Assembly: GCA_903850915.1 (NCBI GenBank)
Contig: CAINMV010000017.1
Span: 1-64,000 of the forward strand
DNA length: 64,000 nt
Origin: an uncultured Bacteroidota bacterium
GTDB lineage: Bacteria > Bacteroidota > Bacteroidia > UKL13-3
Direction: 5' to 3'
A program made the position numbers and the translations under genes. Shown here one piece after another: positions 7,712-11,813 of the stretch; position 1 is the stretch's first letter; the number at the start of each line of letters is the position of its first letter. The notes beneath the pieces are model-generated. The model ran no database searches. It saw only the letters and a list, made by a program, of their open reading frames with translations, and was not told the origin of the DNA.

Positions 7712-7850
7712 TTATAACGGTTTCGGGCTTGGCGAAGGTGGCGATTTTCACCACAAATGTTGATGCGGAGAACCAAACTTTGATTAACCACAAATGTGTC
7801 TGCGGAACACTGAACCGCCACTTTTGCCAAACCCGTGTTAGCAGTAGTTG
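7712..7850 (-). repeat. Palindromic attC-like element A
   Basis: Imperfect inverted repeat just downstream of the Mg2+ ATPase stop. Outer core TTATAAC (7712-7718) faces GTTAGCA (7837-7843). Inner arms 7725-7743 and 7816-7834 pair over 19 positions, and the three that are not Watson-Crick are all G-T type. The centre contains two direct copies of an ACCACAAATG...TGCGGA unit. The whole element is clearly related, in the same orientation, to the one at 10491-10628. The fold resembles integron attC sites, though the R boxes do not fully match GTTRRRY. Small open frames across it are artefacts of the repeat. Confidence 0.65.
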
Positions 7851-7882
7851 TTATTACTCTCGTTAAATTATCACTTTCAAAT

Positions 7883-10402
7883 TTAAGCATTGTGAAACTT
7901 TTTAAAAAACCACACTTTCAATAAGTCTGCAGTAAGTATATATACTGCTACAATAGTTAGCATTGCTCCTAAGTTTAGAAATGGCAGAGGTGTCAAGCCA
8001 ATATCATTAGCAAATGGTAAATAAGGTAACCCAAGTGTCAATACTAATCCCACAATACTTAAAATGAAAAGATATTTACCGGGTTTGCTTTTGAAAAAGT
8101 TTTTGTGTGTTCTAATGATAAATAAAATAAACAACTCAGTTAAGATTGATTCAATAAACCAGCCCGTTTGAAATGCCGATTCTTTTACTTTTAAAACGTA
8201 TAAAAGTGTAAGGAAAGTTATTACATCAAATACGGAACTATGGATGCCGAATATTACCATGTAGTTGCGAATAAATTTCAAGTCCCATTTGCCTGGTCTG
8301 TCTAATTGTTCCTGGTCAACATTGTCAGAGGCAACTGTGAGATAAGGAAAATCGGTTATAAAATTCATCAATAAAATTTGTTTGGGCAACATGGGTAAAA
8401 ATGGCAATAGCAATGAGGCAATAGCCACGCTAAACATGTTTCCAAACGTAGAACCTGTGTTGATGAAAATGTATTTCAACGTATTTGCAAACGTTTTTCT
8501 TCCTTCCTTAATCCCATCTACCAAAACCATTAAATTTTTTTCCATCAATACAAAATCGGCTGCTTCTCTTGCAACGTCAACTGCATTCTCTACTGATATT
8601 CCCACATCCGCTGCGTTGATAGCGGAAACATCATTAATGCCATCGCCAATGTATGCAACAGTATATGATTTTCTTAGAGCCAATATGATTCTTTCCTTTT
8701 GTTGTGGCTCAACTTCTGCGAAAATATGCGTATGTCTTACCAAATGATTTAAGGCTTCCGGACTAGTTTTAAAAACTTCTGCACCAGTTAAAATTTTAGG
8801 ATTAGTAATTCCTATTTTTAAAGCAATGGATTGAGCAACGTTTTTATTGTCGCCAGTAATTATTTTTAAACCGACATTCAATTTATGCAGTTCGCTTATA
8901 GTTTGAACAATTCCATCTTTTATAGGGTCTTGCAGTAAAATGAAACCCGCAAATATCATTTCAGACTCATCACTTTTTTTGATAATGTTTACTCCAATAT
9001 TTTTATAACAAATCCCTATGGCTCGCAGTCCATCAAAGCCGTATTGTTCAAATCTTTTTTCTAATTCAGGTTTATGTAATTCAATATCTTCAATAGTATC
9101 ATTGTCTAATTTTATCTTGGAACAGATTTCAATTATTTGAGTAAATGCTCCTTTGGTAATTAGTATGTTTTCAGTTTCCGTTTTCACGGCAATACTTAAT
9201 CTTTTGCGAAGGAAATCATAGGGAATTTCACCTAATTTTTCGGGTAAACTTTTTGCTTCCAATTTTAAAAGTTTCAATGCATCATCAATGGGATTTGAAT
9301 AACCACTTTCAAATGAGGCATTCCAAAAAGCCAATTGCTTCACCAGTTCATTTTCTTGTCCTAAACCATTTACCAAGCCAACAATTTTAATACTCCCTTC
9401 CGTAATAGTTCCTGTTTTGTCGGTGCATAGCAGGTTTACTTCACCTAAATTCTGAATAGACGCTAACTTTTTTACGATTACTTTTTTTTCCAACATTCTT
9501 TTTGCACCGGCACTCATCGCAATGGTAGTAATTGCAGGCAGCAGTTCTGGTGCCATACCAACCGCTAATGCTAAGGCAAATAGTGCTGACTCTATCGGAC
9601 TTTTATGATTGATTAAATTGATAACCAAAATAAAAACAGAAAGCACTAAGGTGATTTTCATAAGAAAAAAACCAAAGTCTTTTATACCTTTTTCAAAAGT
9701 GGTTTCCACATTTTTGGATGCACTTTGAGCAATGCTTCCAAATATGGTATTGTTGCCTGTTTGTATCGCTAAGGCTTTTGCATCTCCACTCACAATATTT
9801 GTTCCTTCCCAAAGACAATTGATTCTTTTAGACAGTTCTGTGTTCTCTTCTAATTTCCCGGCTTGTTTTCTTACAGGATAAGATTCACCTGTTAGACTAG
9901 CCTCATTGGAATGTAACTCGTTACTCTCCAAAATCAGGCAGTCGGCTGGTATCATATCACCAGCTTTGAATAGAATAACATCACCTGGTACTAAGTTGGA
10001 AGAATCTATTGCTATAGTTTTATTATCTCTGATAACATTGCTTTTCAACGAAATCATTGATTGCAATTTTTCAACTACTCTGCTTGCATTTCTTTCTTGA
10101 AAAAAGCTTAGTAAACCTGTAGAAACTACGATAAAAAGTATGATAAAAACATCTGAAGTATCGCCAAGGAATGCAGAGAGTATAACTGCACCAATCAATA
10201 AAAGCATCAAAGGACTTTTAAATTGATTGATAAATAATTTTATATCTTTTTTGAAACGAGATTCAATTTTTTTATGATTGCCTGAATTACGCAAGAGGGT
10301 ATCTGCATCTTTTTGAGATAACCCTTTGTCAGAACTAGATAATTTCAGAAACCAATAATTGGTGTCAAATTGCCAAAATTTATTTTCAGTAGTTACTTGC
10401 AT
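7883..10402 (-). CDS. mgtA: Magnesium-translocating P-type ATPase (P3B)
   Basis: Inner-membrane ATP-driven importer of the MgtA/MgtB type. The 839-residue protein has the actuator motif Thr-Gly-Glu-Ser-Tyr-Pro-Val, the phosphorylation motif Asp-Lys-Thr-Gly-Thr with Asp328, the Lys-Gly-Ala motif of the nucleotide domain, and the hinge Gly-Asp-Gly-Ile-Asn-Asp. The Mg-ATPase-like Asn-Thr-Leu-Lys-Tyr-Ile segment follows, before the C-terminal helices. It is slightly shorter than enterobacterial MgtA. No Mg2+ riboswitch-like leader was seen. The gene stands alone between two related palindromic elements (7712-7850 and 10491-10628), the arrangement expected of a cassette. Confidence 0.92.
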   Translation of the reverse strand: MQVTTENKFWQFDTNYWFLKLSSSDKGLSQKDADTLLRNSGNHKKIESRFKKDIKLFINQFKSPLMLLLIGAVILSAFLGDTSDVFIILFIVVSTGLLSFFQERNASRVVEKLQSMISLKSNVIRDNKTIAIDSSNLVPGDVILFKAGDMIPADCLILESNELHSNEASLTGESYPVRKQAGKLEENTELSKRINCLWEGTNIVSGDAKALAIQTGNNTIFGSIAQSASKNVETTFEKGIKDFGFFLMKITLVLSVFILVINLINHKSPIESALFALALAVGMAPELLPAITTIAMSAGAKRMLEKKVIVKKLASIQNLGEVNLLCTDKTGTITEGSIKIVGLVNGLGQENELVKQLAFWNASFESGYSNPIDDALKLLKLEAKSLPEKLGEIPYDFLRKRLSIAVKTETENILITKGAFTQIIEICSKIKLDNDTIEDIELHKPELEKRFEQYGFDGLRAIGICYKNIGVNIIKKSDESEMIFAGFILLQDPIKDGIVQTISELHKLNVGLKIITGDNKNVAQSIALKIGITNPKILTGAEVFKTSPEALNHLVRHTHIFAEVEPQQKERIILALRKSYTVAYIGDGINDVSAINAADVGISVENAVDVAREAADFVLMEKNLMVLVDGIKEGRKTFANTLKYIFINTGSTFGNMFSVAIASLLLPFLPMLPKQILLMNFITDFPYLTVASDNVDQEQLDRPGKWDLKFIRNYMVIFGIHSSVFDVITFLTLLYVLKVKESAFQTGWFIESILTELFILFIIRTHKNFFKSKPGKYLFILSIVGLVLTLGLPYLPFANDIGLTPLPFLNLGAMLTIVAVYILTADLLKVWFFKKFHNA

Positions 10403-10490
10403 AAGGTTTGTTCTTTATTTTATTTGTCATTCACCATGATGCTTTCAAAGTAGCTATAATTCTTTATTGTTGTTCTGGTTCGTTACAATT

Positions 10491-11464: not shown

Positions 11465-11479
11465 TTTGTTGTCTTTTAA

Positions 11480-11590
11480 AATTACTGCTAACTTATTTAT
11501 ATCCCTGACAAAACCAGATATACACAACCATTTTGGGGTGGGTAACCCTGATTATGGTAAGGGGTTATATGCGAATCTATTCTTATATGT
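11480..11590 (-). other. Candidate attI-like site behind the recombinase remnant
   Basis: The gap between the recombinase remnant and the zincin gene holds, on the minus strand, GTTAGCAGTAATT (11492-11480). The same 13 bases occur at the boundary of element B (10499-10487). Only weak dyad symmetry is visible around it, for example ATATAACCCC near 11564-11573 against ATATCCCTGA near 11500, unlike the long palindromes at 7.8 and 10.5 kb. A simple site with a core next to the integrase gene is what an integron attI would be. The assignment is inference. Confidence 0.35.
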
Positions 11591-11813
11591 TTATATATCC
11601 AAATCGTCAAATGGAGTCTTTATCTTTTGTATGCATTTCATACTAACATGTGTGTAAATCTCTGTCGTTTTTACTGCTACTTTGCCCCAAAAGTTCCTGT
11701 ATATATCTTAAGTCTGTGCCCTACTCCAGAAGATGCGTGGCGTAACTATGCCTTAGCCAATGTAAACTAACCGGATTCTTGATTCCGGCTAATGCACAAG
11801 CCTTCTTTAAAAC
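11591..11813 (-). pseudogene. Tyrosine recombinase (integrase) C-terminal remnant
   Basis: On the minus strand from about 11813 the frame reads [10 protein letters not shown], then the box II signature [11 protein letters not shown]. A TAG at 11723-11721 follows, then [12 protein letters not shown]. After a frameshift in the homopolymer at 11668-11672 it continues Thr-Thr-Glu-Ile-Tyr-Thr-His-Val (nucleophile Tyr at 11654-11656) to a stop at 11591 after Pro-Phe-Asp-Asp-Leu. The N-terminal two thirds are missing. The preserved end fits XerD-like and integron integrases equally; the part that separates them is lost. Confidence 0.85.

Follow-up and report, generated by a model that had tools for sequence, protein, structure and literature searches.

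A decayed integron-like array in a Bacteroidota genome and a probable integron class with insertion-free integrases

Features of the decayed locus

The window, i.e., the whole stretch of 64,000 nucleotides that was analyzed, contains two leftward genes, one for a secreted zincin-like protease and one for a P-type cation-transporting ATPase, each of which is followed by an imperfect palindrome (Table 1). The two palindromes (7708-7852 and 10489-10633) are 72% identical to each other. An earlier note, made from the sequence alone, had placed them in one family, behind the stop codons of the two genes, and their coordinates, their identity, and a covariance model all confirm this. The covariance model comprises 50 sites, both window palindromes among them, and matches these two palindromes, with the rest of the 64 kb at or below chance level; the palindrome family was first picked up independently, by BLAST in relatives. 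Folded as plus-strand hairpins, the two window palindromes reach z-scores of -2.8 and -2.2 relative to dinucleotide shuffles.

When the locus is divided at the putative cut point, two cassettes and the start of a third are obtained. The gene part of cassette 1 has a 79% homologue on a same-genus contig, and copies up to 98% identical to attC-like site 2 are found in other genomes. The start of cassette 2 matches the reverse complement of its own end (GTTAGCAGTAG) at 5/5 bases. Neither a clear gene of its own nor an attC-like end was found in the third cassette as delimited in Table 1, which is a degraded or truncated array end. Many cassettes open with a conserved leader (TTAnnnGCAAnCCTAAAAGACGACA...), for example from window position 7717 downward, which could be a 5' UTR or an integrase contact. 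In the source genome, sites were observed on at least one further contig besides the window contig, in a search that scored a limited number of candidates.

The first cassette is preceded by an attI leader and by the 3' remnant of an integrase gene. Both the candidate attI-like site behind the first gene and a tyrosine-recombinase C-terminus in the same orientation had been proposed in the earlier note, and both are real. The remnant has an internal in-frame TAG and a frameshift, after which it ends in ...HVSMKCIQKIKTPFDDLDI*, and its 5' part is lost. It is at most 83% identical to the integrases of relatives, most of which are intact and span open frames of roughly 350-400 aa; an intact copy of the window integrase was not found in the source genome. 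Because the integrase is truncated and carries a stop and a frameshift, the array is no longer workable from this locus, and the window copy is decayed. Same-genus attI sites align with the window up to AAGTTA and diverge beyond, and the similarity of the window to three same-genus genomes ends at 11487-11491. The range given for the object by the earlier note, 7712-11813, encloses most of it, but the object extends slightly beyond 11813. As a second correction, the plus-strand open reading frame that overlaps the truncated integrase end is a C-terminal piece of HsdR from a type I restriction system, and it may have been involved in the event by which the integron was inactivated. A perfect inverted repeat lies farther along the window, upstream of a glutamate dehydrogenase-like gene.

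Table 1. Coordinates of the features in the window (^, putative cut point; CM, covariance model)
Feature	Position	Strand	Remarks
Third cassette start	7300..7717	-	TTATAAGCAAGCCTAAAAGACGAC leader
attC-like site 2	7713..7842	-	CM 120.6 bits, E 1.2e-24
Cassette 2, 2781 bp	7718..10498	-	Start TTAGCAGTAATTG; ATPase gene inside
P-type cation-transporting ATPase gene	7883..10402	-	E1-E2_ATPase
attC-like site 1	10494..10623	-	TAAC...G^TTA, 126 bp core-to-core; CM 107 bits, E 1e-21
Cassette 1, 993 bp	10499..11491	-	Start TTAGCAGTAATTTTAAAAGACAAC; zincin gene inside; attC-like site at end
Secreted zincin-like protease gene	10634..11464	-	Peptidase_MA_2, E 1.5e-10
attI-like site	11482..11494		GTTAGCAGTAA
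attI leader, ~110 bp	11482..11590	-	Ends ...GGATATAAATAAG^TTA (GGATATAAATAAG^TTAGCAGTAA); cut point after G at 11492
-7 box of the leader	11572..11579		TAGATTCG; decayed, one mismatch to TAnnTTTG
Integrase gene 3' remnant	11591..11836 (approx.)	-	Tyrosine recombinase C-terminal domain, HxxR box
HsdR C-terminus fragment	11779..12105	+	T1RH-like_C, E 7e-36
Inverted repeat	13091..13132		20 bp, 2-nt loop

Cassette arrays beside intact integrases

The regions beside 80 intact integrases in named genomes were scanned with the covariance model. Of 174 sites, 173 are on the integrase strand and one is on the opposite strand; 172 of the 173 are downstream of the integrase, and one is upstream (L129). 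A second, separate finder gave 145 sites downstream versus 5 upstream, and shuffles give 5. When the arrays are cut at G^TTR, 143 cassettes are obtained with a median length of 856 bp, mostly containing a single ORF of at least 80 aa. The largest ORF runs in the array direction in 126 of 132 cassettes, and the median distance from the stop codon to TAAC is 14.5 nt. Thus the palindromes are neither random in strand nor away from gene ends, two outcomes that the earlier note had named as speaking against its view, and the decayed, reverse-oriented integron-like array that it proposed is supported by the intact relatives. Its remark that the cores deviate from GTTRRRY also holds, with only 6/143 cassette starts conforming, and GTTR is retained.

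The genes carried by the cassettes are varied. Among 106 proteins, 66 Pfam families were found, mostly as single occurrences, including restriction, defence-related, and metal-transport families as well as unknowns. One long array has about 20 sites across 21 kb on a single strand (G466). An integrase with an array is also borne by a plasmid of Chryseobacterium sp. SNU WT5 (L212, NZ_CP041688.1). The cassettes of this plasmid array include an IS110-family transposase and a group II intron; IS110-family elements and group II introns target attC sites of classical integrons. A DUF805b RNA motif (Rfam RF02914) was observed within one integron region (L064:5018-5050, minus strand).

Movement of a cassette in circular form implies that its opening bases and its own left box once made up one site. 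The start of a cassette matches its own end at 5/5 bases in 111/143 cassettes, whereas the start of the neighboring (next) cassette matches the same end at 5/5 in only 8/143. In total, 635/715 bases match between own start and own end, compared with 270 ± 13 (maximum 319) in permutations. For the first cassettes, located at attI, the match to their own end is perfect in 32/40. The exceptions to this rule include a few cassette pairs (e.g., in L101). Furthermore, the circle-form hairpin is more stable than the array-form hairpin in 130/142 cassettes. As a positive control, the same comparison at true IntI loci gave a perfect match in 6/10 cassette pairs, which makes the comparison a valid probe of integron logic. 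As far as genome comparison reaches, the array, the rule of strand and position, and the pairing of own start with own end are established.

The motif TAnnTTTG is the Bacteroidota -7 promoter consensus. It was found in 50/74 leaders, versus 5.3 (maximum 11) in shuffles and 4 on the reverse strand, mostly 10-19 nt beyond the matched end of the integrase and reading into the array. A putative promoter at attI would drive the cassettes.

Structure of the attC-like sites

The attC-like site is an imperfect palindrome of about 126 bp, in which the left TAAC pairs with the right GTTA. Its parts follow the order of outer box, unpaired spacer, inner box, unpaired bases, stem, and variable loop, and attC sites have been described with this same order (PMC2727003). 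The inner stem has 17 pairs with unpaired interruptions, and compensatory changes are located at 16 of the 17. In the site alignment, 96.9% of the cells are paired compared with 66.7% after shuffling, covariation is 0.694 compared with 0.165, and a one-base shift of the partner lowers pairing to 37-39%. Comparison therefore supports hairpins that covary. Nearly all of the changes preserve Watson-Crick pairs, and G-T pairs are found at essentially one position; their scarcity elsewhere points to selection on a DNA structure rather than on an RNA structure. Folded single-stranded DNA would be the recombination substrate.

The pairing of the outer arm extends 11 nt beyond GTTR, with a fixed mismatch at position +7, where the cassette start has A in 140/143 and the cassette end has G in 120/143. 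Our own site finder requires a [CT]AAC...GTT[AG] frame and misses some covariance-model sites; because its first version set the strand by the base at +7, a fixed A there was partly its own construction, and in the analysis of 143 cassettes the strand was taken from the integrase alone. The palindromes are covered by no Rfam family, and no match was obtained when plasmid DNA was searched with the repeat itself. In attI, the longest perfect arm has a median of 8, compared with 6 in shuffles, which no more than suggests that attI itself may form a hairpin.

Traces of cassette movement

Matching cassettes were observed at different positions within and between genomes. A 1437-bp MerT/HMA (mercury-transport) cassette is common to Flavobacterium denitrificans and Pelobium (1437/1437 bp, 93%); it is located at attI in F. 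denitrificans and mid-array in Pelobium, and its flanks are unrelated (identity 0.25/0.20). In F. saccharophilum, a single cassette is present twice (99.6% across 1088/1088 bp), and in G025 a 968-bp cassette is found both at the attI of one array and inside another (100%, 968/968). The latter genome has six integrase copies on one contig, five of which have identical attI sequence to TCCTATAAGCTAGTTA and diverge immediately beyond it. Several metagenome contigs stop exactly at the attI core, as expected if many different sequences follow one attI. From such comparisons, breakpoints at the cut point and the transfer and duplication of whole cassettes are established.

The six copies in G025 (L064-L069) consist of the integrase 3' end plus attI-like leader. 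One of these, L069, is a chimera with an N-terminal part from an IS91-associated recombinase like that at L067:13401-14210.

The integrase family

Members of the integrase family are 345-400 aa long and have a XerA- and IntI-like core, to which a domain of about 60 residues (fold order bb-a-bb-a) is added at the N-terminus. The IntI-specific insertion (about 41 residues, around patch III) is absent. The spacing between box I and HxxR is 91-92 aa in 18/18 family members versus 133 in 13/14 IntIs, a set that includes IntI1 of R100 and one IntI in which the motif was not found; in the Xers measured it is 94-98 aa. Five family members scored 195.9-214.9 bits with TIGR02249, below the cut-off of 265, and four of five tested passed the cut-off of NF040815. 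An IntI structure (2a3v) is among the closest solved structures, but it aligns in two pieces with about 60 residues skipped.

In the phylogenetic tree, the IntIs are united in a separate clade (100/100), the Xer rows group separately (100/100), and the integrase family lies apart from IntI and outside the Xer clade. A single insertion-free clade was not rejected by the topology test (p-AU 0.53), and the insertion-free integrases may or may not be paraphyletic to IntI. Deeper branches of the integrases (L259-L271), also insertion-free, likewise lie ahead of arrays on their own strand, in some cases with other attI leaders, and insertion-free integrases may be the older form. On a contig labelled Azoarcus (L191, JAITVD010000007.1), an integrase copy at 66% was observed, which reflects either transfer into Proteobacteria or an error in binning.

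For the N-terminal domain, Foldseek ranked the HARP domain of SMARCAL1 first, not significantly (E 0.38, probability 0.47), and a sequence search of the PDB gave no usable match. A HARP-type domain, guessed from a W-S...W-H pattern, is a lead.

The IntI-specific domain has been called defining, and IntegronFinder requires a match to it (PMC9668308). In that paper, which cites Messier and Roy (2001), the insertion is reported to be necessary for IntI activity; integrases lacking it are a point against reading these loci as integrons. The earlier note had regarded an intact homologue without the IntI-specific patch and without any link to the repeats as contrary evidence; the patch is indeed absent, whereas the link to the repeats is present, as described below.

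Distribution in the phylum

Among 396 genomes drawn from the Bacteroidota phylum, sites were found in at least 182 (E<=1e-4), a lower bound given the stricter filters applied. With one palindrome copy as the query, matches were obtained in 67/97 relatives from many families of the bacterial class, and neighboring copies on one contig share the strand. Sites are present in 38/38 phylum genomes in which the integrase is strongly matched (Fisher p=1.4e-14), so comparison supports the co-occurrence of integrase and sites; 91/182 site-bearing genomes are without an integrase at E<=1e-80.

True IntI genes, i.e., those over the TIGR02249 cut-off, were detected in 105/396 genomes, and these genomes carry sites less often than others (odds ratio 0.52). 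When 15 true IntI loci were scanned with the site model, one marginal match (E 2e-5) was obtained, the others being weaker. The number of genomes with true IntI is far above what published surveys of complete genomes suggest.

Interpretation

The window very probably holds a dead integron, whose class is active across Bacteroidota or has been so recently. The intact members have a tyrosine recombinase of about 345-400 aa that faces an attI about 100 bp past its stop codon, and a putative promoter at attI would read into an array of mostly one-gene cassettes in a single direction. Each cassette ends in an attC-like site of about 126 bp that folds into a DNA hairpin. Cassettes would exit in circular form and be inserted at attI or at an attC, the break falling between G and TT of GTTR, and an integrase of this family would make the cut. 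Judged from sequence comparison, the class works like an integron; it is not assigned to the IntI class because the feature that defines the latter, the IntI-specific insertion, was looked for and is absent. A phylum-wide integron class with insertion-free integrases, missed by detection tools and with an N-terminal domain perhaps recognizing the hairpin, is likely; it would have been overlooked because such tools depend on attC cores of the classical type and on the IntI-specific domain.

The palindromes could instead be MITE-like or REP-like repeats or terminators that another enzyme has placed or kept, the recombinase being coincidental. The sites are dispersed, half of the site-bearing genomes are without a close integrase match, and hairpins directly after stop codons could end transcription. 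However, a repeat moving alone is not expected to favor the integrase strand and the downstream side of integrases, nor to show breaks at the core of attI, pairing of own start with own end, or transfer of whole cassettes including the gene, and selection at the DNA level, indicated by the scarcity of G-T pairs, speaks against terminators. We regard this explanation as very improbable. Equally little credence is given to ordinary IntI integrons with attC sites that are merely somewhat divergent. Such integrons have the same parts list, an IntI is among the nearest solved structures, and true IntI genes do occur in the phylum; yet the integrases described here are without the IntI insertion, fall under the TIGR02249 cut-off, and form a clade apart from IntI, and the site model gives at most weak matches near IntI loci; the presence of IntI shows no positive association with the sites. 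A separate integron class remains the preferred reading.

Integrons are the main known natural platform for gene capture, and Bacteroidota have been thought nearly empty of complete ones. According to the IntegronFinder 2.0 paper, its earlier survey saw only cassette-less integrases in Bacteroidota, to which Salinibacter was then added (PMC9024848). Our literature search found no description of the present class; a preprint is possible, bioRxiv being outside the search. If the interpretation is true, a separate class present in roughly half of the phylum genomes sampled, and also on a plasmid, would constitute a large unlisted pool of mobile genes for metal transport, restriction and other defence proteins, and unknowns. 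Moreover, the IntI-specific domain, held necessary for integron recombination, would not be so. The class would test the need for that domain in cassette recombination and would offer an independent system for comparing the recognition of folded DNA.

Comparison with known systems

With classical integrons, the class shares an integrase, an adjacent attI, a promoter (here a putative one) into the array, and cassettes in one direction, as well as hairpin attC sites with paired outer and inner boxes, a cut within GTT, and a cassette 5' end that corresponds to the cassette's own inverse core. Unlike in classical integrons, the integrases have no IntI insertion, carry the additional N-terminal domain (about 60 residues), and point toward the cassettes; the core is GTTR, and the outer arm continues 11 nt past it with the fixed mismatch at +7. 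The reverse integrons of Treponema (PMC3607928) likewise have an integrase transcribed toward attI, in the direction of the cassettes, but they are described as intI-based, whereas the family here is without the insertion and belongs to another clade. An insertion-free catalytic core is shared with XerA, XerC-XerD, and the integron-like subgroup of simple tyrosine recombinases (PMC8138268). The Xer enzymes, however, act on dif-like double-stranded sites and have no cassette arrays, and the present family lies outside their clade.
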